Assembly: GCA_963205185.1 (NCBI GenBank)
Contig: CAUJHZ010000028.1
Span: 1 to 46,020 of the forward strand
Source of the DNA: Planctomycetota bacterium
GTDB taxonomy: Bacteria; Planctomycetota; Phycisphaerae; Phycisphaerales; UBA5793
Direction: 5' to 3'
Length of the DNA: 46,020 bases
A model generated the notes under the pieces. That model had not been told where the DNA came from. It did not search any database and worked only from the letters and a program-made list of their open reading frames with translations. The translations under genes were made by a program, and so were the position numbers. The number at the start of each line of letters is the position of its first letter. The first letter of the stretch is position 1. Positions 7,257 through 45,623 of the stretch are shown piece by piece.

Positions 7257-7511
7257 TTATTCGATCACGACCTCGGCGACGTTGCTGACACGCTGAAACT
7301 CGGCGGCCTGCATCCACACCCGCGTGCCCTGTGAGTTGGGCGGGATGCGCTTGCGCAGCAGGGCGTAGCCATCCTGATCGGCGGTTCGAACGCCCGCCTG
7401 CACCGGACTGGTCAGATCGAGCGTCACGTCGAGTTGCGGCACATAGGTGCTGCCCAGGCCGCGCACGCTGTAGACAAAGACGACCGTAGCGCCGGGGGTG
7501 GCGCGGGTGAC
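7257..7511 (-). other. Shared C-terminal domain, copy in subtilase
   Basis: The last 84 residues of the subtilase. They begin VTRATPGATVVFVYS, contain VRTADQDGYA and end QRVSNVAEVVIE. The pattern ATPG-x(2,4)-hydrophobic-VY, a central P/L-rich strand pair, TAD-x-x-G-x-A, and SN close to the C-terminus aligns by eye with 23220-23480 and 43822-44097. This copy lacks the cysteines found in the other two. Confidence 0.6.
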
Positions 7512-8849
7512 TTCGGCGTCGCCGTTCACGCCCGCGACGAAGCGCGACGTGGTCAGCCGCATCGGAATCTCGCCCGAGTAGGCTGCTTCGATGGCATTGC
7601 GCAGGTTGATGCGGCCATAGCCGTAGGTGTCATCGATGCCCTGCGAGCCGAGATCGTTGCAGGTCGTCTTGAGGAAGAACTCGACCTCGTCGGGCGTGAG
7701 CGCCGGGTTGGTGGACCAGAGCAGGGCCGCCAGGCCGGAGACCTGCGGGCAGGCCGCGCTGGTGCCGCTGAAATTGCGATACTGATTGTCGCCCTCGCTT
7801 GAGATGTTCCAGACTTCCTCGCCGGGCGCGACGAGATCGACCATGCGGCCGTAGTTCGAGAACGATGACTTGACATCCTGCCGGCTCACGGCCCCGACGA
7901 GTATCACGTCATCGGCATCGCGATCGTTCGTGGTCATGTTCTGGTTCGCGTTGCCCGCCGCCCAGATCATGAGTCCGCCGATCGACTTGATGTACGTCGC
8001 GGTGTCGCGCACGGCCTGGTTGTCCACGCCGCTGTAACTCAGGCTGGCGACTTTGTCGCCGTTCTCGATCGCGGTGGTCGCCGCGTGGTTGAGCCACTCG
8101 ATGGACGAGCCGCCGCCGCCGCTGTTGGTCACGCGGAGCATCCGGTGGCTCAGGTTCCAGCCCATGCCGGTCACGCCGATGCCGTTGTCGCCGTTGGCGG
8201 CAGCGCAGCCCGTGGCGTTCGTGCCGTGACCGTAGATGTCTTCGATGCGACCTCCCTGAGTTTCCCAGAGGCGGTCCACTGCGTTGTAGCCTTCCTGACG
8301 GTGCTGTTGCAGGTCTTCATGGGTGACGCGCACGCCGGTGTCGCACACGCCGACGGTGACTTCCGACGTACCGGTGTGGATGTCCCAGCCGGCGCACGAA
8401 TCGAAACGATCTACGCCGTGGTACCACTGCGAGCCAAACTGCGAATCGTTCGGGCAGTCCTGCGGGTAGACGCGCCAGTTGGGCTCGACGAACTTGAACA
8501 ACCCCGAAACGAGCAGGTGCTCGGCCACGCCGTTCTCGGTAAAGCCGAGAGGCAAGTCAAAAATGTACTGATCCGTCTGCCAGACGTGGTTGCGCACCGC
8601 GGCGATGGCGCCGATCATGGCGACGGCCTGGTCGTAACGCTGCTGCGCGTCGATGCCGCTCAAGCCCTGCTCAATCCAGTGCGACACCGGCCATGGGCGT
8701 GCGATCATCGAGCCTGAGAATTCCTGGTAGCCTGGCTGCTCGACGTAGCGCGCCTGGCCATGGTCGGCCAGAGAGATGTGGGCGCCGACCGATGCGGCCA
8801 GCGCGATACTGAGCATCTGCAGGTTTCGTGGGATGCGGGTGCGTGACAT
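7257..8849 (-). CDS. Secreted subtilisin-like serine peptidase (S8)
   Basis: A protein of 530 residues: signal peptide (about 1-28), an inhibitor-like propeptide ending near KFVEPNWRVYP (about 119-129), an S8 catalytic domain, then a C-terminal beta domain (about 447-530). The triad is complete: Asp170 in GVCDTGVRVTHEDL, His208 in IYGHGTNATGCAA and Ser364 in FSGTSAACPQVSGLAALLW. The oxyanion Asn300 is in WAAGNANQN. It should be an extracytoplasmic endopeptidase released by propeptide cleavage. GGAGGAG lies 6 bases before the ATG. The last 84 residues resemble the ends of two other secreted proteins in the window (22656-23480 and 43822-45528), which suggests a shared sorting or anchoring module. 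It has its own terminator. Confidence 0.94.
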   Translation of the reverse strand: MSRTRIPRNLQMLSIALAASVGAHISLADHGQARYVEQPGYQEFSGSMIARPWPVSHWIEQGLSGIDAQQRYDQAVAMIGAIAAVRNHVWQTDQYIFDLPLGFTENGVAEHLLVSGLFKFVEPNWRVYPQDCPNDSQFGSQWYHGVDRFDSCAGWDIHTGTSEVTVGVCDTGVRVTHEDLQQHRQEGYNAVDRLWETQGGRIEDIYGHGTNATGCAAANGDNGIGVTGMGWNLSHRMLRVTNSGGGGSSIEWLNHAATTAIENGDKVASLSYSGVDNQAVRDTATYIKSIGGLMIWAAGNANQNMTTNDRDADDVILVGAVSRQDVKSSFSNYGRMVDLVAPGEEVWNISSEGDNQYRNFSGTSAACPQVSGLAALLWSTNPALTPDEVEFFLKTTCNDLGSQGIDDTYGYGRINLRNAIEAAYSGEIPMRLTTSRFVAGVNGDAEVTRATPGATVVFVYSVRGLGSTYVPQLDVTLDLTSPVQAGVRTADQDGYALLRKRIPPNSQGTRVWMQAAEFQRVSNVAEVVIE

Positions 8850-22655: not shown

Positions 22656-23480
22656 ATGAATGCACGTCTCTGCACCGCGATCATGGCCATGGGCTTCGGC
22701 ACTGCCGCCCTGGCGCAAACCGGCACGCTCGACCAGGTCTCGCCGATGACCAACGCCGGCTTCAACCTCAGCGCCTCTTCGCTGCAATGGCAGCAGCAGG
22801 TGCGCGTCGGCGTCGCCGGCTAACTGGAGGGCTTCGAACTCATGATCCAGGGTAACGCCGGCGCCCAGTTCAACGCGCGCGTCCGCATCGGCGACGGCTG
22901 GAACACCGGCGCCATCGTCTTCCAGAACCTCTTCACCAAGCCCAACAACGGCAACGAAATCATGTTCATCGACGTGACCTCGGCGAACATCAACCTCGGC
23001 GTCGGCGACACCTTCGTCATCGAAACCCAGGGCAACGACACGGGCGCCGGGCTCGTGGGCAGTTACGATCCCTCCAATCCGCAGTACCCCGAGTTTCTCT
23101 TTCTCAATGGCCCCGGCTGCTTCTCCGACTGCGGCTGGCGGCACGGCTTCAACACCTACATGATCGAAGGCGGCGGACTGACGCTGGATCTCTCCGGCCC
23201 GTGCCCCGGCCAGGTCACTGTTGACATCAGCGGCGCCACGCCCGGCGGACGCGTCGCCATCGTCTACGGCACCTGCAACGGCAGCACGACGATTCCCGGC
23301 GGGCCGTGCGCCGGCACCGTGCTCGACGTCGGCGGCGCCACGCTGCTGCGCTTCGTCACCGCTGACGCCAACGGCAACGCCAGCACCAGCGGCAACGCCC
23401 CGCAAGGCGCGTGCGGCCGCATCTGCGTCCAGGCCGTTGACGCCACGACGTGCGAAACGAGCAACGACGAAGGCCTCTGA
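22656..23480 (+). pseudogene. Secreted protein gene interrupted by one in-frame TAA
   Basis: The reading frame from ATG 22656 (AAGGAG 6 bases upstream) begins with a signal peptide, LCTAIMAMGFGTAALAQ. It stops at TAA 22821-22823, codon 56, then continues in the same frame without a further stop to 23480. Across the stop the sequence reads VRVGVAG-stop-LEGFEL and continues as one beta-rich protein of about 274 residues. Changing one base (TAA to CAA, Gln) restores it. The last 86 residues form the shared C-terminal domain with four conserved-looking Cys. It may be a fresh nonsense mutation, a sequencing or assembly error, or a readthrough site. The function of the intact protein is unknown; it would be exported. 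Confidence 0.85.
23220..23480 (+). other. Shared C-terminal domain, copy in broken secreted gene
   Basis: The last 86 codons: VDISGATPGGRVAIVYG, IPGGPCAGTVLDVGG, FVTADANGNAS, ACGRICVQAVDATTCETSN. It aligns by eye with 43822-44097 (IPNGNPCSGTALELG, VCGGYLQLVDITRCATSN) and more loosely with the subtilase end. Confidence 0.65.
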
Positions 23481-28154: not shown

Positions 28155-30923
28155 TCAGTCCTTTGGCGGCTGGTCCCAAGGCGCATCCGACTTCCGCTCG
28201 GCGAGGCTGAACTTCGCGCTGCTGCGCGGCTTGTCGGGCCGGTCGGCGGCGCTCGACGGGCTCTGCATCCACGGCAGGCTGCTGCGGCCGTCGTCGAGCG
28301 GCTCGTTCTCAGGCTGCTGCTCGCGCTGCCGGTAGTACGGTTCGTTCCAGTGATCGAGGCTCGCAGGATTCTCTTCGACATCCGCGCCTTCGAGTTTGCG
28401 ACGGCTCTCGTTGAGCAGGCGGTAATCGTCCTCGCCCATGGCGCGTATCTTGTCCTCCGAGTCGAGGATGATCGGCCGGATGAACGCGACCAGCTCGGTG
28501 CGCGATTCAGACTTCTCCGTCGAGCGGAACAGGCCGCCGATGAGCGGAATGTCGCCCAGCAGCGGCACCTTGCGGACGATGTCATTGAGCACGGTGCGCC
28601 GGATGCCGCTGATGACCACCGTCTGCCCGTCGCGGATCGTCACCTTCGTCGTCGTCTCGCGCCGGTCGAGAATCGAGCCGCCAAAGAGCGTCTGGCCCGG
28701 CACCACGCTGGACAACTTCAGGTTCACGCGCAGATCGACGTTGCCTTCGACCGTGATGTGCGGCCGCACGCTGAGTTGAATGCCCACGGCGAGGTATTCG
28801 AAACTCTGGGTCACGCCGCCTACGTCGGTCGTGGCCGACTCGGTGATGAACGGGATGTCCTGGCCATCGAAGAAGTTGGCCTCTTCGTTGTCGCTCGTGA
28901 CGACCTTGGGCCGGAAGAGCACGTTGACATCCGTCACCTGCGAAAGCGCCTGCAGCGCGACGTTGAGATCGACGTTGACGCCCAGCGTGGACGTGTCAAA
29001 GAGCGCGTTGATGAGTTCGTTCTTCTCGCCCTCAATGCTGCTGTTGACGACGATGCGATTGTCTTCGTTGGGCCCGCTGGCGACGTTGCCGCTGCCCCAG
29101 CGGATTCCCAGCGAGGTGGCGTCATCGACGCTCACTTCGGCGACGATCGCCTGAATGAGCACCTGCCGGCCCGGCGCATCGAGCATCTCAATGAGCGTGC
29201 CCATGGCTTCGCGCAGCTCCGGCGGGGCCACGACCATCAGGCCGTTCATGCGCGGATACGGCATGACGCGCACCTGGCCGATCAGGTTCGAGATCTTGCG
29301 CGCATCAGGATCGGGCGAGCCCGACTGCCACGGAAAGGCGATCGCTTCGCCCTGCTGCTGTGTCTGCTGTTGCGTCTGCTGCTGCTGGTTGCCGATCTGC
29401 GAGACGTTGGATCGCTCCGTGAGTTCCTGGGTGGTCCGCTCCACGTCAGCTCCGCGAGCGCCCTCTTCAGCCAGCAGTGCATTGATGCGGATGGAAAGGT
29501 CTTCGGCGTCGGCGTATTTCAGTTCGTAGATCTGAGGCTTGTTCACGTCGCCGGGCACGTCGAGGCGGCGGATGAACTCCTCAACGAGGGGATAGACCGT
29601 GGGAATCTGCGAGGTCACAAAAAGCAGGTTCTTGGTGTTGTCCGCCTTGAACGACAGTTGCCCCGCGAGTGCGGAAAGTTTGGGTCCTTCGCCTTCCTGG
29701 TTGCGGGAGGTGTTCTGCTGCTGCCGCGCCGCATTGCCGTCGAAGAAGAAGCCGCTTTCAAAGGTCTGAACGTCTTCGCTTTCCTGCGCGAAGATCTCGT
29801 TGAGCATCTCGGCCATCTTCACCGCGTCGCTGTTCTGCAGATGGATGACAATCGGCAGCGGCTTGCCATGCTCGATGTCCCACTGATCTCTGATCTGGGT
29901 GCGCACCTGCTCGATGATGTCGCGCTCGGCCCGCACCGTAACCGAGTTAAGCGACTTATCCGTCACCACCTTCAGTTGCGTCGAGGTGGTCAGCCCTTCA
30001 TCCTGACCACCCGGTCGCGGCCGACCTCCGAAGATATTCTGATTGCGGCCGCCCTGCTGCTGCTCTTCCTCCTGGCCGAAGATGCCGACGATGAGCTTGG
30101 CCACGCGGTCGGCGCTGGCGTACTTGAGATAAAACGTCTCAAGTTGCAGGTTGCTCCCGGCGATGTCGAGCTTCTTGATCTGCTCCTGCAGGCGCTGCAA
30201 CGTGCCGACGTTATAAAGTGCGATGATCTGGTTCGAAGCGTCCTCCACCTCGATCTTCATGTTCGGCGGGCCCTGGGCCTGGATCTTGTCCTTGATCGTC
30301 GAGGCCTTGCCATACTTGATCTGAAACACCTTCTCGACGACCATGCCCGTGTCATTGCGGCCAAGCACCGGGTCATCCGGGCCGAGCACGGGCACCATGC
30401 CCTCCTGAATGTTGGCGACGTTGAGCACGGCCAGGTGCGTGCCGCGATCGATCACCGCGATGCGGCTGGCAAAGAGCGTGTCCACGAGCAGGTTGAGCGC
30501 CTGCTCGCGCGTGAGCGGCGTGGAGTTGATGATGGTGATCTTGATCTGCTGGCTGAGCATGAGCGGATCGGGCTGCACGGGACGGCCAGAGAGACGCTGA
30601 AGCAGCAGCATCGCCTGGTCGATGGGCATGCCGTTGAACGAGAGGAGTTCGAGATCGCCCTCGGTGGGCGCGCTGGTCGCACCGGGCTGCGGCTGCGGAT
30701 TCTCGAGCGGCTCTGGCTGGCCGAAGTCGAGGCCGCCGTCATCGCCGCCTTCGAGTCCGAAGTCAAAAATCGGCTGATCGTCCTCGTTGCCGGTCTGCGT
30801 CTGATCGGGCGGGGCGCCGAAATTCAGCGGCGAAGCCGGAGCATCTTGCGCTCCGGGCGCGGCGGCGGGCGAGACGAGTGCGGATGCAGCCAGGGCCAGG
30901 CACGTTCGGCGATAGTGTTTCAT
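28155..30923 (-). CDS. gspD: Type II secretion system secretin GspD
   Basis: A protein of about 922 residues: signal peptide, an acidic low-complexity N-terminal segment (about 30-85), several N domains, then the secretin barrel. Recognisable features are LNVANIQEG and VFQIKYGKASTIKD in the N domains, and VLIQAIVAEVSVDDATSLGI at the start of the secretin domain. TTTKVTIRDGQTVVISGIRR and VPLLGDIPLIGGLFRSTEKS form the secretin signature. It assembles into the outer-membrane channel for folded exoproteins. Oddities are a Gln-rich insert (QQQQTQQQTQQQGEAI) between N domains and a hydrophilic tail of about 110 residues after the barrel. ATG 30923 is chosen because the signal peptide starts there. 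Confidence 0.96.
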   Translation of the reverse strand: MKHYRRTCLALAASALVSPAAAPGAQDAPASPLNFGAPPDQTQTGNEDDQPIFDFGLEGGDDGGLDFGQPEPLENPQPQPGATSAPTEGDLELLSFNGMPIDQAMLLLQRLSGRPVQPDPLMLSQQIKITIINSTPLTREQALNLLVDTLFASRIAVIDRGTHLAVLNVANIQEGMVPVLGPDDPVLGRNDTGMVVEKVFQIKYGKASTIKDKIQAQGPPNMKIEVEDASNQIIALYNVGTLQRLQEQIKKLDIAGSNLQLETFYLKYASADRVAKLIVGIFGQEEEQQQGGRNQNIFGGRPRPGGQDEGLTTSTQLKVVTDKSLNSVTVRAERDIIEQVRTQIRDQWDIEHGKPLPIVIHLQNSDAVKMAEMLNEIFAQESEDVQTFESGFFFDGNAARQQQNTSRNQEGEGPKLSALAGQLSFKADNTKNLLFVTSQIPTVYPLVEEFIRRLDVPGDVNKPQIYELKYADAEDLSIRINALLAEEGARGADVERTTQELTERSNVSQIGNQQQQTQQQTQQQGEAIAFPWQSGSPDPDARKISNLIGQVRVMPYPRMNGLMVVAPPELREAMGTLIEMLDAPGRQVLIQAIVAEVSVDDATSLGIRWGSGNVASGPNEDNRIVVNSSIEGEKNELINALFDTSTLGVNVDLNVALQALSQVTDVNVLFRPKVVTSDNEEANFFDGQDIPFITESATTDVGGVTQSFEYLAVGIQLSVRPHITVEGNVDLRVNLKLSSVVPGQTLFGGSILDRRETTTKVTIRDGQTVVISGIRRTVLNDIVRKVPLLGDIPLIGGLFRSTEKSESRTELVAFIRPIILDSEDKIRAMGEDDYRLLNESRRKLEGADVEENPASLDHWNEPYYRQREQQPENEPLDDGRSSLPWMQSPSSAADRPDKPRSSAKFSLAERKSDAPWDQPPKD

Positions 30924-30942
30924 GTATCTCGCGTTCCTGTTT

Positions 30943-31026
30943 GGCCGCACTCTCAAGCGGCCGGCGTTTTCTCTCTGCTCGTGAGCCGATGATGACTCAA
31001 GCGGCGCTCCGGTCCACCACGACCGG
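30943..31026 (-). promoter_or_regulatory. Two hairpins in the gspC-gspD gap
   Basis: GGCCGC-8-GCGGCC at 30943-30962 and CCGGTC-6-GACCGG at 31009-31026 lie in the only long gap (121 bases) of the operon after gspE. They could be mRNA processing or stability signals that raise secretin output. No T-run follows either, so they are not classical terminators. Confidence 0.4.
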
Positions 31027-32324: not shown

Positions 32325-34171
32325 GGTTCGAAATCATCTCCGTCGGGCGAGGGCTGGCTGCTCAACTGCCGCCTGCGCTCGAGCAGTTTGTTCCATTCTT
32401 CCTGCAGGCGCGGGTCGGTAGACTTGATGGCGGCGCGGGCGAGCAGCGCCTTTTGCACTTCGTCATCGTTCATCTTGCCGATCTGCTCATCCGTGAGCGG
32501 GGGCGGCGGCGCCTTGGGCGCGCTGCTCAATCCCGCCGTGCCGCTGGCGCCGGTGCTGCTGCGCGCCGCGCCGGGCGAGGCGCCGTTCGAATTGCCCGCC
32601 GGCGGGAAGACAAAGCCGCTGCCATCTGAGTTGCCGCTCTCCTGCGACGGACGATTCCGCGGCGTGCGCGATGGCGGCCCGAATCCGCCCAGACTGAAAC
32701 TCGTGAAGTTATATTCGCCCGGCACGACCTCTTCGGGCGGCTGGTCGTAGAGCACCGTCGCGAGCGGCTCGTCGCTGGGCCGCTTGGCCTTGGCCGTCGC
32801 GTTGGCCACGATCGCCTGCAGCTCGAATTCGATCTTGTTCTCACCCCAGGTGAAGTTCGGCGCCTTCACTTCGGCAAAGATGCTCGACTCGTTGAGCCGG
32901 CTGTGAAATTCGAGCACCTGGCTCTGCTCACCCAGCGGCGCCGCGCCGCTGATAGTCACCATCGACGAACTGTCAATGTTAATGGAGTCGAATTCGATGT
33001 CATACGGCGCCATGCCGGAGATGTCGGCGAGAATCTTGGTCATCGGCCAGCGGTGGCTGCGCAGCGTGCGGAAGAAGTCCGCCTCGGCCTGCCGATCCTT
33101 GAACACCTTCTCGACCTCTTCGAGATCGCGGGTCTTATGTTCGAGGATGGCCAGGCGCGCCCACCCGCCCAGAATCGGCGCCGCGAGGATGAGCACGGCC
33201 GCCACGATGGCGACGCGGCGGGCGCGCGACGGATCGCTGAGCCAGTTGAGGGCCGAAACGAGAAAGCCGCGCGGCGCTTCCGGGGCCGCCGGCAGCAGGT
33301 CGGCCATGCCGCCCCGAGGACCCATCACCGCCAGCGCTGCGCCGGCGCACAGGCCGAAGCGATTCCACCACGCGCTGTCGCCGCCGGCGCCGGCAATCGA
33401 CTTGCCCAGCCGCTGGAGCACGTCTGGCTCGATGACCAGCACCTGCCGCTGCGCGCGGGCCGCGTTGCTCATGCGCGCTTCGAGTTCAGCCAGCGCCTCA
33501 TCCGATGCGCCCGCGCTCATCGCCGTTTCGACGGCGATGCGTGCCGCGTCGGCCGACCACTGCGCCTCGCCAAGCCGCGCCGTGCGCACTGCCGTTACGC
33601 CTTCCAGGTGCGAAGCGAGTTCCATCGACCGCTGATCGCGATCGAGCGAAGCGATCGTCCCCTGGTTGATGCCGCTGTGCACGAGCAGTTCCAGCAGCGC
33701 CGCAGCCTCGGCGCAGCACGTCACGTTCTCGATGCTCGCGGGCCAGTCGGCGCCCTGCTCGCCCGGCCAGCCGAAGGCCACCGCGATGCGATTGTCCACC
33801 GGCGTGCGCCAGGGCATGAGCGCCACCGCGCGGCGGTGGTCGGGCAGCATCGCGGGCAAGTCGGCTTCAGCCTGCAGCCGCGCCGCCTCAGCAGCTGCGG
33901 CGTCGTCAAGCGGCGGTATCTCCAGCACCCGGCAGACCACCGACCCGCCCGGCAGCACACGCACCACGCGCTCGGCCGCCCACCGGTTCAGCAGCGCCGC
34001 CAGGCGGTCCGCGTCGCGAGAGGGCAGTGACTGGTGCTCGACGACGTGAAAGCGGCCGCTGCGCACTTCGGCGAGCAGCGCGCTGATCTGATCGCCCTGG
34101 CGGTGCACCGCCGCGACGCGGCGCGGTGCGTCATGACCGTTGAATCGGGTTGGAGTGTTGAGTCGCGTCAT
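32321..34171 (-). CDS. GspL/PilN-like T2SS assembly-platform protein
   Basis: A protein of 616 residues. The N-terminal half is an actin-like (PilM/GspL cytoplasmic) region without a nucleotide motif I can identify. A membrane helix follows near residue 320 (VAIVAAVLILAAPILGGWA), then a coiled coil (KTRDLEEVEKVFKDRQAEAD) and a PilN-type periplasmic ferredoxin-like domain (IEFDSINIDSSSMVTISGAA). The last 130 or so residues are a low-complexity Pro/Ser/Gly region plus a charged helix (LTDEQIGKMNDDEVQKALLA). GspL recruits the GspE ATPase to the membrane. It is longer than typical GspL (about 400) because of this tail. It overlaps gspK and gspM by 4 bases each. Confidence 0.75.
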   Translation of the reverse strand: MTRLNTPTRFNGHDAPRRVAAVHRQGDQISALLAEVRSGRFHVVEHQSLPSRDADRLAALLNRWAAERVVRVLPGGSVVCRVLEIPPLDDAAAAEAARLQAEADLPAMLPDHRRAVALMPWRTPVDNRIAVAFGWPGEQGADWPASIENVTCCAEAAALLELLVHSGINQGTIASLDRDQRSMELASHLEGVTAVRTARLGEAQWSADAARIAVETAMSAGASDEALAELEARMSNAARAQRQVLVIEPDVLQRLGKSIAGAGGDSAWWNRFGLCAGAALAVMGPRGGMADLLPAAPEAPRGFLVSALNWLSDPSRARRVAIVAAVLILAAPILGGWARLAILEHKTRDLEEVEKVFKDRQAEADFFRTLRSHRWPMTKILADISGMAPYDIEFDSINIDSSSMVTISGAAPLGEQSQVLEFHSRLNESSIFAEVKAPNFTWGENKIEFELQAIVANATAKAKRPSDEPLATVLYDQPPEEVVPGEYNFTSFSLGGFGPPSRTPRNRPSQESGNSDGSGFVFPPAGNSNGASPGAARSSTGASGTAGLSSAPKAPPPPLTDEQIGKMNDDEVQKALLARAAIKSTDPRLQEEWNKLLERRRQLSSQPSPDGDDFEP

Positions 34172-35616
34172 CGTTCGAGGTAGTCGATTATCTGAATGGG
34201 AAGCGAAGAACGGTCGATCGTAACCACCAGTTCAACCTCAGTCCTGCCCGGCAAACCCACGCCGCGGCTCGTGATCACGTACACGCTGCTTTTCACGTCA
34301 ACGAGCGGCGCCATGGCCGCAAGCGTTTCGCGGCTGAGCGTCGGAATCTGAAGCAGTTCGATGAGGTTCGTGATTCCGTCGGCCTTGCTGTTGCGCAGCA
34401 GGTCGATCTGGTCCGCCATCGCCTCATCGACGCCCGGGAGCAATTCGAGCACCTCGACAGGCGCCTTGTTGATGTTGATGCGCCCGGGAACGTAGGCGTA
34501 GGTCGTGCCGATGGTGCTCTCAGCCAGCACGCGACCGATCTGCTCATCGGTCAGGTCGCGCGCGCCGAGCGTCTGCTGTTGCGGTTGCTGCTGGTTGCGC
34601 TGATTGCGCCGGCCTTGTGTTCCTCCGGTCGTTGCGCCGCCGCTTTCGCCGCCGGTGCTGCCCGCCGGCTGGCCCGAGCGCGTGATGGTGCTCAGCGGAG
34701 TGGTGATGAGACCCGCCAGCGTGTTGCCCTCGGCCCGCGAATACTGGAACAGCGCGTTGGCCTGGGCGATGTCCACTCCCAGCGCTTTGCTGATTTCGGA
34801 AACGGCCGAGGTGCTCAGCGAGATCTTGCCCGGCTGCGGCGTCAGCGGGCCCGGCTCGCGTGAGGCCGCCGTGAGCAGCGCCGACCACCCGGCGTCGAGC
34901 CGGCCGTCGCCATTGTCATCGGGCAGCGAGGCATCGCCGTCGTCCTCGTTGGGATCGAGCAGGCCGTTGAAGTTCCAGTCTTCTTCACGGAGCAGTTCGG
35001 GCGTAACGCCGTAGACAAGTTCGAGTTCCTGGATCGATTTGAACGGCCCGTTGCGCGGGTTGTAGGGCTTGAGGTCGTTGTTGTAATACCCGGCCTCGGC
35101 GCCGCCTTCGCGCACATCTCCGTCCGGATCGATCCAGTCGAGAATCGACGCGACGATCTCAGGGGTGATATCTTCGAGTTTGTTCAGGGCTTCTTCGTCG
35201 AGCGTGTTGATGTTGGCCCTGGCGTGGCCGTCGGCCGGCCCGTCCACGAGCTGGTCATCGTTCCAGTGCTGGATGTGGTACTCGGCCACGAGCAATCCGT
35301 TGGAGTCGGTGATCTCGCCGTGCGCGAGTTCCTCCATGTCGGCCTCGAAGTTGGGCAGATCGATCTCCTGCTCGGTGTCGATGAGCCACTCGAGGTAGGC
35401 CATGTATGACTCGACGCCGGCGCGGGCGGCCCATTTGGCGCGCACGCGGCCGAGCGCTTCGCGGCCGGACATTGCCTGGCGCTGGGCGGAGAGTTGCAAG
35501 GGGATGACGATGAGCGAGGCGATCGTAACCACCCACAGCACGAGCATAAGCGTCGAGCCGCGCCGCGGGCCGCGCACCGAGCGCGGCGCCGGGATTTTGG
35601 AGCGCGCTGCCATCAT
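34168..35616 (-). CDS. gspK: T2SS minor pseudopilin GspK
   Basis: A protein of 482 residues, longer than the usual 300-350. The N-terminus RRGSTLMLVLWVVTIASLIV is a GspK-type class III signal lacking the +5 Glu, as expected for the tip pseudopilin. KWAARAGVESYMAYLEWLID follows. Two SAM-like/helix-hairpin-helix regions are seen: ANINTLDEEALNKLEDITPE and ININKAPVEVLELLPGVDEA. Between them lie a calcium-binding-like DDGDASLPDDNGDGRLDAG segment and a Gln/Gly-rich linker. It caps the pseudopilus with GspI and GspJ. It overlaps gspJ and gspL by 4 bases. Confidence 0.9.
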   Translation of the reverse strand: MMAARSKIPAPRSVRGPRRGSTLMLVLWVVTIASLIVIPLQLSAQRQAMSGREALGRVRAKWAARAGVESYMAYLEWLIDTEQEIDLPNFEADMEELAHGEITDSNGLLVAEYHIQHWNDDQLVDGPADGHARANINTLDEEALNKLEDITPEIVASILDWIDPDGDVREGGAEAGYYNNDLKPYNPRNGPFKSIQELELVYGVTPELLREEDWNFNGLLDPNEDDGDASLPDDNGDGRLDAGWSALLTAASREPGPLTPQPGKISLSTSAVSEISKALGVDIAQANALFQYSRAEGNTLAGLITTPLSTITRSGQPAGSTGGESGGATTGGTQGRRNQRNQQQPQQQTLGARDLTDEQIGRVLAESTIGTTYAYVPGRININKAPVEVLELLPGVDEAMADQIDLLRNSKADGITNLIELLQIPTLSRETLAAMAPLVDVKSSVYVITSRGVGLPGRTEVELVVTIDRSSLPIQIIDYLER

Positions 35617-36548
35617 CCGTCTCCCCTCGGCCGGCCGCCGCCACCACCGCTGCGTCCACCGCCGTCGCCGCCGCGCGTGCCGCCGCCGGCTCCACCACGG
35701 TCGCGCGGCCGGCGGCGCGACCCGCCGCTGCCGCCGCCGGAATCTCCTCCGCCGCCTCCGCCGAAATCGATCGTCGGCGCTCCCGAGCCATTTTCCGAGT
35801 CGAAGAACTCGAGGTTCTCGATGTCGCTCGACGGGTCGTAGGTTTCATCCACTGCGGGATCAAAGGGCAGCGGGATCCGGTCGATGGCGACGGTCAGGCG
35901 CGACGCGACCTCAGCGCCGGTGGATGGGATGACGCCGCGACAGGTGACGCGCAGCGCGTGCGGCAGGCCGTCGGTGTCGCTGTCCCACGTGCTCAGCCAC
36001 GTCGTTCCGTCAAAGGCTTCGAAGTCGAGTGAGCGGATGTTGACGCCCAGCGGCACGGCGACCCCGCCGCCTTCATAGTTCTCATCCACGATCGGATCGG
36101 CCCGCCGCCAGATCACGCCCGTCACGACCGGATCAGTCTTGAGACGGTAACTCACTTCGTGAATCGTCGATTCGCGGTAAGTCGGATCATCGTCGGACAC
36201 GGGGCGAACCGGCCGCATCGAACGGCAGAAGAGCAGGATCTCATCGTGCTGATCGGCGCCCGAACTGGTCGTGTCTTCAATGCGCACGATGGTGTCGAGC
36301 AGCCTGGTGTCGCGGACGATGTTGGCCATGTCGCGCGCGATCGATCGCGTGATGGAATTGACCGACTCGACGGCCGCCTGCCTCTGCGCGGATCGGTCGC
36401 GACCGTCGGCGAGGCGGCGGATGGAGATCGTCGCAGCGCCGGCGAGGATCGAGGCAATGACGCTGGCGACGACGAGTTCGATGAGCGTGAAGCCACGCTG
36501 CGACGCGGCGGGCCGGCGAGCCCGGGATGTGGCGTTGATCTGCATCAT
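35613..36548 (-). CDS. gspJ: T2SS minor pseudopilin GspJ with Gly/Arg-rich tail
   Basis: A protein of about 311 residues. The prepilin motif is QRGFTLIELVVASVIASILA with cleavage after Gly and Glu at +5. A beta-rich head follows with SYRLKTDPVVTGVIWRRAD and RSLDFEAFDGTTWLSTWDSD, matching GspJ. The last 55 residues are a low-complexity Gly tail with clustered Arg and Asp (GGSRRRPRDRGGAGGGTRGG), not usual for this family. The start is ATG 36548, which overlaps the gspI stop (ATGA), and the stop overlaps gspK. Confidence 0.9.
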   Translation of the reverse strand: MMQINATSRARRPAASQRGFTLIELVVASVIASILAGAATISIRRLADGRDRSAQRQAAVESVNSITRSIARDMANIVRDTRLLDTIVRIEDTTSSGADQHDEILLFCRSMRPVRPVSDDDPTYRESTIHEVSYRLKTDPVVTGVIWRRADPIVDENYEGGGVAVPLGVNIRSLDFEAFDGTTWLSTWDSDTDGLPHALRVTCRGVIPSTGAEVASRLTVAIDRIPLPFDPAVDETYDPSSDIENLEFFDSENGSGAPTIDFGGGGGGDSGGGSGGSRRRPRDRGGAGGGTRGGDGGGRSGGGGGRPRGDG

Positions 36549-36988
36549 GGCCGCTCCACGGGTTGAGTGGGTTCGCGTTCGGGGTCGGGTTCTTCGCCCA
36601 GCCGCCGGGCCATGAGCGTCTGCACTTCGGCCGTCTGCTCGCCCGCGCCCGTCTGCCACCACACGCGCGCCGTCACGCGGAAGGGCTCGTTGGGCGCCGT
36701 GTCGTCGATGCTGATGCGGAAGGTGAAGCGATCGAGCGGCGGCTCGACCGTTCCGCTCATCTCGCCCGCCTTGAGGTACTCGGCCGGACCCAGCGCCAGC
36801 ACGTCGCTCAGCAGCGAGTCGAGCACCATCGCCGCTTCCTCGATCTGCTGGCCGCGCGCCTGCGCGTTGAGCGAACGGCTCGCGATGCCGAGCACCGCGA
36901 CCAGCGCGCCCGAGAGCACCATGCCCGCCACGAGCACATCCATCAGCGCCAGGCCGCGGCGGATCGGATTGGCTTGCCGCCTCACCAT
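36545..36988 (-). CDS. gspI: T2SS minor pseudopilin GspI-like
   Basis: A protein of 147 residues. The N-terminus RRGLALMDVLVAGMVLSGAL is a degenerate class III signal. Cleavage after Gly would leave Leu at +1 and Asp, not Glu, at +5. The rest has a GspI-like small beta domain (RFTFRISIDDTAPNEPFRVT, then ARVWWQTGAG). It would form the tip complex with GspJ and GspK. It overlaps gspH by 7 bases and gspJ by 4. The assignment is supported mainly by order and the N-terminal helix. Confidence 0.75.
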   Translation of the reverse strand: MVRRQANPIRRGLALMDVLVAGMVLSGALVAVLGIASRSLNAQARGQQIEEAAMVLDSLLSDVLALGPAEYLKAGEMSGTVEPPLDRFTFRISIDDTAPNEPFRVTARVWWQTGAGEQTAEVQTLMARRLGEEPDPEREPTQPVERP

Positions 36989-37620
36989 CGCTCGTCTCCG
37001 GCGCCTTGCGCGTTGAGGTCTTCGGGTGTCAGGCGCAGCCGCGTGGCTTCTTCGCTCAGCGTCATCGAGCGCATCTCGCTGGGCAGGAGCGTGACGGTTT
37101 CGACCACATCACCAAAGGCGATGTCGAGTTCGATGCTGGGCCGCACGCGATTGGGCGCCACTTCGACGCGAAACGAGCCGCGCTCGAGTTGTCCGTCAAA
37201 CAGCGCTGCCGCGAGCGTGATGTCGCGCTCGAAGGTGACCGGCGGCGTGAGGTTGTCGCGCTTCCACTGGCCTTCGGCCGGCCGCGTGTCCGGCGTCTGA
37301 CCCATCGCCGTCGTCGATTCGAGGCGCTCGACCCACATCTGGTTCGAGCCCGAGTCGTACACGAGCGCCACGGGCGCCTGGCTGGCGACCTGCCGGTGCG
37401 CGAGGGTGTCGAGGACGTTCTGCACGCGCTGCACCATCACCCGGCCGCGGCGCGGCAGGGTGTTGGTCATGCGCACCGTCGTCACGCCGGCGAGGACCGA
37501 GAGGATCACGATGACGACGATCATCTCGACGAGCGTAAAGCCGCCGCGCCTTCGCGCGGTTGGCTGGTTCGAGATGTTCGCGGTGCGGTTCATGATCCGG
37601 TCCGTGCGGGTCGAGACCAT
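36982..37620 (-). CDS. gspH: T2SS minor pseudopilin GspH-like
   Basis: A protein of 212 residues. The signal RRRGGFTLVEMIVVIVILSV has Gly at -1, Phe at +1 and Glu at +5. The beta-rich head includes VALVYDSGSNQMWVERLEST and RGSFRVEVAPNRVRPSIELD. This matches GspH/FimT-type minor pseudopilins. It overlaps the gspG stop by one base (TGATG) and gspI by 7 bases, so it is translationally coupled on both sides. Confidence 0.85.
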   Translation of the reverse strand: MVSTRTDRIMNRTANISNQPTARRRGGFTLVEMIVVIVILSVLAGVTTVRMTNTLPRRGRVMVQRVQNVLDTLAHRQVASQAPVALVYDSGSNQMWVERLESTTAMGQTPDTRPAEGQWKRDNLTPPVTFERDITLAAALFDGQLERGSFRVEVAPNRVRPSIELDIAFGDVVETVTLLPSEMRSMTLSEEATRLRLTPEDLNAQGAGDERW

Positions 37621-38057
37621 CAGCCGATGATGTCGGCGTCGTCGCCTTCGCCGCCCTCGCGGCCGTCGGCGCCGTAACTGACGATGTCGTAGTCGACGTG
37701 GATGGTGGGCGGAATCACCAGGGCGTAGTCATTGCCCCAGGGGTCCTTCAGATCGGCTTCCTTGTTGATGCCCTTCTGCCATGTGTCCGGCGCGTCCTTG
37801 GGTTTGTCCCAGAGCAGCGCGCGAAGCGTGTCGCCGCTGTCGGGTTCGCGCCCGAGATCGGTGTACACCAGGTCGAGCGAGGTGCGCAGGCTCGCCATCG
37901 ACGCCTTGGCCGCGGCGACCTTGGACTGTCCGATGCGGCCCATGAGGCGCGGCGCGACCACGGCGGCGAGCACGCCGATGATGATGACCACGACGATGGC
38001 TTCGATGAGCGTGAAGCCGCGCCGCGAGCGACGTTGAGAACGGTTTCCGGTTTGCAT
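37620..38057 (-). CDS. gspG: T2SS major pseudopilin GspG
   Basis: A protein of about 145 residues. The signal RRGFTLIEAIVVVIIIGVLA is canonical. The C-terminal calcium-binding region of GspG is clear: LKDPWGNDYALVIP, then YDIVSYGADGREGGEGDDAD. GspG polymerises into the pseudopilus that drives exoprotein through the secretin. ATG 38057 is preferred because GGAG lies 9 bases upstream; a TTG at 38072 is in frame but has no ribosome binding site. Confidence 0.96.
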   Translation of the reverse strand: MQTGNRSQRRSRRGFTLIEAIVVVIIIGVLAAVVAPRLMGRIGQSKVAAAKASMASLRTSLDLVYTDLGREPDSGDTLRALLWDKPKDAPDTWQKGINKEADLKDPWGNDYALVIPPTIHVDYDIVSYGADGREGGEGDDADIIG

Positions 38058-38085
38058 GGTTCGAATCTCCAAATGGGCGGCCGGT

Positions 38086-43821: not shown

Positions 43822-44097
43822 CTACTCAATCCGCACGATGTTGCTCGTCGCGCAGCGGGTGATGTCGACGAGTTGGAGATAGCCGCCGCAGACGCTGCGC
43901 GGGACGGTGCGCTTGATGCGGCCGGCGCCGAACTGGCCGGCCGAGCCGGTGTGGGCGACCTGCAGGCCGAGTTGGCCGAGTTCCAGCGCCGTGCCTGAAC
44001 ACGGGTTGCCGTTGGGGATGACAAAGTTGCCGGTCCGCTTGGCGTAGAGCAGCGCGATCCGCGCCCGTTGATCCGGCGTCGCCTGGAACCAGCGCAC
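43822..44097 (-). other. Shared C-terminal domain, copy in FG-GAP-like protein
   Basis: The last 91 residues: VRWFQATPDQRARIALLYAK, IPNGNPCSGTALELG, RSVCGGYLQLVDITRCATSN, then seven residues to the C-terminus. Three Cys align with those at 23220-23480 and the SN lies at the same distance from the end. Confidence 0.65.
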
Positions 44098-45528
44098 TTT
44101 AATCTCTCCGCCCGGCCCGCTGAAGCAGTCGGGAACCTTCTGCAAGGTAAGCACCGGCGGCGGACAGTTGCCCGGCTGCCCGGGGTTGAGGTCGAAGATG
44201 TACGCCGCGCCGACCGTGAACTCATCACCGCGATCGGGGCAGTTCCATTGTTCTGCCCCGACGATGACCTGACCCTCTGACTCACCGTTGCCCAGAGCAA
44301 GCTCGGAGCCGAACAGATCGTTGGCGGTGCTGTCCTGTCCGTTCAAGCCTTGAGCCGCAACCCATTCGCCAGATCGGCTGTCGCGTTCAAGTACATACGC
44401 CGAGCCCGATCCACCACCGAACGCTGAATCCACGGGGGCGCCGACGATAAGACGGTTCGCTCCATCCTTGTTCAGGTCCACCGACCAGCCGAAGCGTATT
44501 TGACCCGGATTTGCAATCGGCGGCGTGATGTGCGCTTCGAGCGTCCATGAACCGTTGTCGTGCCGGTCGTAGATATAAACAGCGCCTGGTCCCGCAGGCG
44601 CCCCATTGCCGCCTTCGTGTGGTCGACCGACGGCCACGCGATGGGTGACGCCCGGCACATCGTTCACGAGGCCAACGGCGACGTCATAACCGAAGAAGTC
44701 CTGGACGTAAGGAACGGGTGCCTGGAACTGCGCTTCGACGATCCACTCGTCGTTGAGTGCATCAAACCGATAGAAGTAGACGGTGCCGGGCAACTGACGA
44801 GCAACATACGCATGGCCTGGCGCTCCCACCGCCAGAACACTTACGCCGTTCCCCTCAATGTGATCGAGTGCAAAGCCATAGGCATCTTCGGGCGCTTGAT
44901 CAGGGGCTTCAATGCTCCACGCTTGACTCCAGACACCCTGCATATCTGCTGTGAACCCATGTACGGCGCCGATTAGACCATGTCCATCTGACCCCGGCGC
45001 GCCAACAACGCATACGGAACGTTCACCGGTTCTTGCCCAAGTCACTTCATGACCGAACCAAGAATTGGCCACTCGGGGTTGCGCAGTCAGCATTTGGATG
45101 TAAGTCCACTGCCCCATCTGGTGATCAAAACTGAACAGATCGACGACTCCAGCCGTGTACACATCGCCACTTTCCTGCGATCGTCCGACCGCTAACAGAT
45201 CTGTCGTGGCGAACTCAATGGAGGCTCCGAAGTTGTCGATAGGGTGTAAGCCGGGCGGGCTCAACTCTGATTCGAACGTCCATTGCGATGGACCCGAAAG
45301 CACATACGTCCGCACCTTGCCGCCACTTTGCTCGTAGTGCCCCTCCGCGAGTCGTCCATCGAACACCGCCAGCCGCCGACCAAACGTCTGGAATTCGGTG
45401 CACGAAGGTGCGGTTAGCTGTTCGAGCTGCATTGGTGGACAGGGCGGGAGATTGGCCGGAGCACCCGCAGAGGCGGCGAGTCCAGTCATAGTGCCAAGCA
45501 CGCTAAGACCAAGTGACCGAATGACCAT
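43822..45528 (-). CDS. Secreted FG-GAP-like beta-propeller protein
   Basis: A protein of about 568 residues. ATG 45528 is chosen because GGGAG lies 6 bases upstream. The signal peptide is VIRSLGLSVLGTMTGLAASA. The body has about seven repeated blades with FG...VA.GAP motifs of FG-GAP/integrin-alpha type: NSWFGHEVTWARTG with CVVGAPGSDGHG, AYGFALDHIEG with LAVGAPGHAY, FFGYDVAVG with VAVGRPHEG, and IRFGWSVDLNKDGANRLIVG. The last 91 residues are the shared C-terminal domain. It is presumably extracellular and adhesive or ligand-binding. Base composition is visibly less G+C-rich than in the T2SS region, and an IS5 element lies just upstream, so it may be acquired. Confidence 0.82.
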   Translation of the reverse strand: MVIRSLGLSVLGTMTGLAASAGAPANLPPCPPMQLEQLTAPSCTEFQTFGRRLAVFDGRLAEGHYEQSGGKVRTYVLSGPSQWTFESELSPPGLHPIDNFGASIEFATTDLLAVGRSQESGDVYTAGVVDLFSFDHQMGQWTYIQMLTAQPRVANSWFGHEVTWARTGERSVCVVGAPGSDGHGLIGAVHGFTADMQGVWSQAWSIEAPDQAPEDAYGFALDHIEGNGVSVLAVGAPGHAYVARQLPGTVYFYRFDALNDEWIVEAQFQAPVPYVQDFFGYDVAVGLVNDVPGVTHRVAVGRPHEGGNGAPAGPGAVYIYDRHDNGSWTLEAHITPPIANPGQIRFGWSVDLNKDGANRLIVGAPVDSAFGGGSGSAYVLERDSRSGEWVAAQGLNGQDSTANDLFGSELALGNGESEGQVIVGAEQWNCPDRGDEFTVGAAYIFDLNPGQPGNCPPPVLTLQKVPDCFSGPGGEIKVRWFQATPDQRARIALLYAKRTGNFVIPNGNPCSGTALELGQLGLQVAHTGSAGQFGAGRIKRTVPRSVCGGYLQLVDITRCATSNIVRIE

Positions 45529-45623
45529 CTTCGACTCCCATTCCACGCAAACGTGCGTCCTCGATTCGTCCCGTTAGTTTGCGGGTGTGTCGGATCGGTT
45601 ACTGCATCCGACACAAAACACCA

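Follow-up and report, generated by a model that had tools for sequence, protein, structure and literature searches.

The question raised by this locus is why three otherwise unrelated exported proteins should share the same C-terminal tail. The window, the whole 46,020-nucleotide stretch of a Planctomycetota genome (Phycisphaerales, UBA5793) that was analysed, encodes a FG-GAP repeat protein (43822..45546, minus strand; PF14312, E 2.3e-20) and a secreted subtilase (7257..8849, minus strand; PF00082, E 2.8e-44), each an open frame with a signal peptide by a heuristic test, together with a broken secreted gene (22656..23480, plus strand). The tail of the FG-GAP protein (43825-44139) carries a domain of the four-Cys type at 43825..44115, with the stop codon directly after it at 43822-43824. 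The broken gene ends in another four-Cys domain (23187..23477), and the tail of the subtilase (7260-7553) contains a Cys-free type at 7260..7541. All three are profile matches, and an earlier note on this DNA had located the tails correctly. The broken gene opens with a signal peptide at 22656 and has an early in-frame TAA at 22821-22823; the remaining frame, including the tail, is open to 23480. Either the gene became a pseudogene recently or the assembly is wrong at this place.

The proposal that one domain is common to the three tails was borne out by shuffle tests and by a profile built from them. The FG-GAP and broken-gene tails align with a score of 119, whereas 2000 shuffles gave at most 65, and the broken-gene and subtilase tails with a score of 64, against a shuffled maximum of 45. 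Taken as a pair, the FG-GAP and subtilase tails score only 30 (p 0.145), which is not significant, and their kinship therefore rests on the broken-gene tail and the wider family.

That family is large. The three-tail profile matches the genome of the window in at least 150 places, with all of the best 150 at E < 4e-9, so that the further members anticipated by the earlier note exist in quantity. Another 51 places came from a profile of the Cys-free type and one more from a broad profile, giving 202 distinct places on 54 of the 76 contigs. As these include a few fragments, a fair figure is ~200 copies in the 4.55 Mb genome. The three tails thus belong to one undescribed domain family of ~95 residues. 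Its members are divergent (22–44% identity to the first row of a family alignment), and neither a short invariant motif nor a cleavage motif was seen in the tails. Among 35 diverse tails, none scored above the curated cut-off of any Pfam or NCBIfam model, the best values being E 0.022 and 0.072 for single members only. A sequence search of the PDB with the tails found nothing convincing (best E 0.96 and 0.35), plasmid records gave no match to a four-Cys-type tail used as the query, and no description of a planctomycete C-terminal sorting domain of this kind was found in the open-access literature.

AlphaFold2 models were built for the subtilase and FG-GAP tails only, from sequences of the window and of related loci. 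The subtilase tail reached a mean pLDDT of 97.4 and the FG-GAP tail one of 90.8, and nine strands follow in the same order in each. Both modelled tails are predicted with high confidence to be Ig-like nine-strand sandwiches. The expectation of one fold for all three tails is supported for these two, judged by strand order and by the same class of PDB matches; the broken-gene tail is placed with them by its alignment to both. Foldseek searches of the PDB with the tail models gave no match at E <= 0.001. VIA-align returned matches at Z 9–10 to antibodies, Nir2, neocarzinostatin, and Ig/FnIII domains of enzymes, which are taken as indicating a common fold only. The FnIII domains of PelI and Pel3 are among the fold matches (Z 8.8–9.2), with unrelated Ig folds, including antibodies, scoring alike.

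The shared Cys pattern described for the window's tails is a real feature of the family. An iterated profile, run on regions fetched around most of the first matches, gave 156 copies in 156 open frames. All four Cys are present in 93 copies, only the second and fourth in 23, only the fourth in 11, and none in 24, with other patterns in five. The first and third covary, with both present in 93 copies, neither in 58, and a single one in five; likewise the second and fourth occur together in 120, are both absent from 24, and stand singly in 12. Because the members of each pair come and go together, the pattern suggests two disulfides, C1-C3 and C2-C4, in most copies.

Placement at the extreme C-terminus was confirmed well beyond the window. 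In its own genome, a stop codon is present for 155 copies, and in 149 it lies no more than 15 residues beyond the domain. Of the other six, five have 21–23 residues after the domain and form a sub-type whose last loop is longer (IRRGxGGADSVKT), while the sixth is followed by 109 further residues. At loci of relatives (records titled Phycisphaerales UBA5793, PLA5, PLA1, PNC21, and OFTM274), 87 of 90 copies end within 15 residues of the protein end, and for planctomycetes of other families the figure is 28 of 30 within seven residues, counting domains whose frame has a stop codon. In three long exceptions (L053, L160, L184) the domain follows the signal peptide directly or at a short distance, and so lies at one protein end or the other. 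One copy per protein is the rule.

The proteins that carry the domain are predominantly exported, as the earlier note had supposed. A crude test found signal peptides in 135 of 149, many of the form AxA-Q, compared with 123 of 320 in a background of long open frames that includes shadow frames. In ten sampled 20-kb stretches, three domain proteins were counted among 38 signal-peptide candidates, a ratio that is not a secretome fraction because so crude a test also picks up pseudopilins, lipoproteins, and cytoplasmic proteins. Outside the domain the proteins are unrelated, as claimed for the first three. A Pfam scan of 128 identified S8, M14, and M28 peptidases, FG-GAP, Kelch, and SBBP propellers, beta-helices, DUF3466, CHRD, CBM96, and GSDH, with no Pfam match for many. 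No enzyme class or substrate is common to the cargo. Roughly 18 proteins consist of a signal peptide and the domain only.

The best explanation, with about an even chance of being right, is that the domain is a folded C-terminal address tag for export or anchoring. It would fold outside the cytoplasm, where most copies may acquire two disulfides. A single partner shared by all copies, located in the envelope or on the cell surface, would recognise the folded domain and either export the cargo or hold it there. This reading is favoured by the fixed terminal place and the diversity of the cargo, and by the tail swapping and PEP-CTERM pattern described below. Against it stand the ~18 proteins without other cargo and the three copies beside a signal peptide, as a pure secretion signal needs neither. 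The divergence of the tails and the lack of a short invariant motif or of a visible cleavage motif also count against it.

These same proteins make a plain binding or adhesion module a serious rival. Such a module would be exported by another route and would then bind polysaccharide, matrix, or its own copies, in the way that carbohydrate-binding modules bind after export, with the protein end being simply the usual place of addition. Free-standing and signal-peptide-adjacent copies, and one subtilase with two copies in tandem, are what this would produce. Many bacterial exoenzymes and adhesins also contain Ig-like sandwiches, and the fold matches include several such proteins. However, binding modules usually occur at internal positions and in multiple copies as well, whereas here 149 of 155 are last and mostly single, and a cargo that shares neither enzyme class nor substrate fits poorly. 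A binding role is possible, but less likely than an address tag.

The subtilases of the genome allow the presence of the domain to be followed within one enzyme family. There are 13, of which 11 carry the domain; among those of the exported type it is present in 11 of 12, which supports the address-tag reading. The single exported-type exception (L188, C57:24000-29000) has a C-terminus that looks like a PKD domain plus another beta domain, and over 356 residues of the catalytic part it is 59% identical to the window's subtilase. Another (L187, C74:78602-79618) has no signal peptide in the 839-residue frame that was read, unlike the exported ones, and probably belongs to an intracellular system. 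The subtilase with two tandem copies (L195, C76:250344-250931) adjoins a single-copy paralogue that is 93% identical.

Tails and cargo have separate histories. When ten domain-bearing subtilases are compared, the distance between tails shows no correlation with the distance between catalytic parts (Mantel r 0.09, p 0.25). Tails that share 80% identity with that of the window's subtilase are attached to catalytic domains only 35–36% identical to its own, while domain-bearing subtilases closer to it in the catalytic part (52–54%) have tails that are ~36% identical. Genome-wide, 340 tail pairs share at least 60% identity, and in 266 of these the cargo has no detectable similarity. The same is seen in DNA. 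Between the gene of the FG-GAP protein and its paralogue L103, the final 100 codons match at 94–96% of positions, with synonymous differences of 10–15%, compared with 40–61% agreement and synonymous differences of 50–72% over most of the cargo. In 158 gene pairs the tail DNA is similar over 180 nt or more, and the median start of the similar tract lies 287 nt ahead of the stop codon, where the domain begins. Most tracts do not extend past the stop, and only 11 of the 158 continue for more than 12 nt beyond it.

The domain itself is hence the unit of exchange or homogenisation. This pattern is best explained by copying of tails between genes or by gene conversion, because the agreement at synonymous sites stops at the stop codon, which protein-level selection alone would not give. 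The bounds of the tracts fit as well, since homology confined to the domain would limit them. Exchange of tail DNA across the whole domain makes this a clear case of concerted evolution at a protein end.

Exchange of this kind would also be expected of a stabilising cap, or of a largely neutral module that is spread and kept alike by gene conversion and read by no partner. Similarity from domain start to stop codon across unrelated genes is what repeat recombination would give, and the loose sequence constraint across tail types agrees with it. Nevertheless, this alternative is improbable. Retention by 11 of the 12 exported-type subtilases and the joint gain or loss of the putative disulfide pairs argue against it, and it gives no account of why so many unrelated folds receive the domain. 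The sharp lineage boundary described next is a further argument against such a module.

All six genomes of the window's family (f1), which span two genera, hold at least 150 copies each, and the domain occurs in 0 of 25 genomes from other families of the order. In a larger draw of 201 genomes of the order, the same six were recovered along with a single copy in one of the 195 others. Across the phylum, with the best 12 candidates per genome scored, 60 of 392 genomes have a match. A distant planctomycete family (f62) holds 23–78 copies in each of eight genomes, and six genomes from further families have 4–11 copies each.

PEP-CTERM is a C-terminal tag already known from this phylum, and its counts run the other way. 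PEP-CTERM tails number 0–9 per genome in f1, none in f62, and 0–16 in f2 to f4, and reach 30–123 in 10 of the 12 genomes of the sister families f5 and f6. A high count of the domain and a high count of PEP-CTERM exclude each other in this panel, but the panel contains few independent lineages. Exosortase was detected in all f1 to f6 genomes tested, including the domain-free relatives. It does not accompany the tags in every genome, as PF09721 was not found in five of the eight f62 genomes (31–78 tails; genomes 87–90% complete). The genome of the window has two exosortase genes (C47:22170-22925 and C7:139055-139825) and only seven PEP-CTERM tails.

The window also encodes genes of a type II secretion system (T2SS), all on the minus strand: a GspD-like secretin (28155..30956; PF00263, E 1.1e-43), GspK- and GspJ-like genes (34168..36662; PF21687, E 4.9e-15, and PF11612, E 3.7e-6, just under the cut-off), and a GspG-like major pseudopilin (37620..38072; PF08334, E 7.3e-26). 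The T2SS moves folded proteins. In Pel3 and PelI, loops 3 and 5 of an FnIII domain are part of the T2SS signal and recruit these enzymes to the system (PMC7949064). On these two grounds the T2SS is a candidate partner, and the domain could be the recognition element of the system encoded here, a version that overlaps the address-tag reading. The T2SSG pseudopilin (PF08334) is present in 20 of 20 domain-positive genomes. However, it is also present in 24 of 25 domain-free relatives, whose systems would work without the domain. The suggestion that domain counts would track T2SS presence was thus not upheld, as the presence of a T2SS does not discriminate between the two groups. Furthermore, the FnIII of Pel3 is N-terminal and one among several signals, and a common Ig-like fold is weak evidence of a common role. 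Recognition by this T2SS is accordingly an unlikely form of the address-tag reading. Beyond the shared sandwich, the FnIII domains of PelI and Pel3 differ in belonging to one enzyme family, in being cleaved after secretion (PMC7949064), and in having no sequence similarity to the planctomycete domain, and many unrelated Ig folds match it equally well.

C-terminal tags are already known as a kind, and what is new here is a family of different make-up. The T9SS C-terminal domains of Bacteroidota are folded beta-sandwiches of ~80–100 residues that terminate a wide range of unrelated proteins exported by Sec. The planctomycete domain resembles them in its Ig-like sandwich, its extreme C-terminal place, and its Sec-exported cargo, a likeness of build and not of homology, and differs in having free-standing copies. 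The T9SS models TIGR04183 and PF18962 gave no match at E <= 1 among the 35 diverse tails. SprA_N was found in 0 of 30 genomes, with no control genome positive either, and the absence of T9SS domains from the listed fold matches proves nothing.

PEP-CTERM likewise tags many unrelated exported proteins, is present in sister families, and sits close to the protein end, 87% of its regions having fewer than ten residues after them (PMC1569441). Its profile spans 24 residues and includes a membrane segment, whereas the planctomycete domain is predicted to be folded and soluble with two putative disulfides, is strand-forming to its last residues, and is abundant in different lineages. PF07589 gave no match at E <= 1 among the 35 tails. 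GlyGly-CTERM, the tag associated with rhombosortase, is also C-terminal and found in T2SS-bearing bacteria, and for it, too, no particular T2SS subclass could be singled out (PMC3237569). Its tripartite build, with a Gly-rich motif, a transmembrane helix, and basic residues at the end, is lacking in the planctomycete tails, and TIGR03501 gave no match among the 35.

A further point against the address tag is that no receptor or dedicated machine was found, with both T2SS and exosortase also occurring in domain-free relatives. It is conceivable, and tentatively proposed, that some Planctomycetota possess a dedicated and undescribed export or surface-anchoring machine which reads a folded Ig-like C-terminal tag on ~200 proteins. 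The tag would stand where sister families have PEP-CTERM, and its copies would be kept alike by gene conversion. The routing of proteins to the surface and the outside is poorly known in planctomycetes, and here an unannotated domain is carried by ~200 proteins of a single genome, very roughly one gene in twenty. As the tag can be counted, a search for its receptor by phylogenetic profiling becomes possible, and hundreds of exported proteins now listed as 'hypothetical' would gain an annotation for their ends.

Some of the small genes for a signal peptide and the domain stand in rows, at L039:1-2239 (C7:1-2239 in the genome of the window), L038:1629-3871, and L093:9431-11525. The rows in L038 and L093 come right after a subtilase gene. 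In L038 and L039 the small genes alternate with 56-residue remnants of a subtilase-type tail, as if the unit had been duplicated. Their products might act on the protease, or the genes might be relics.
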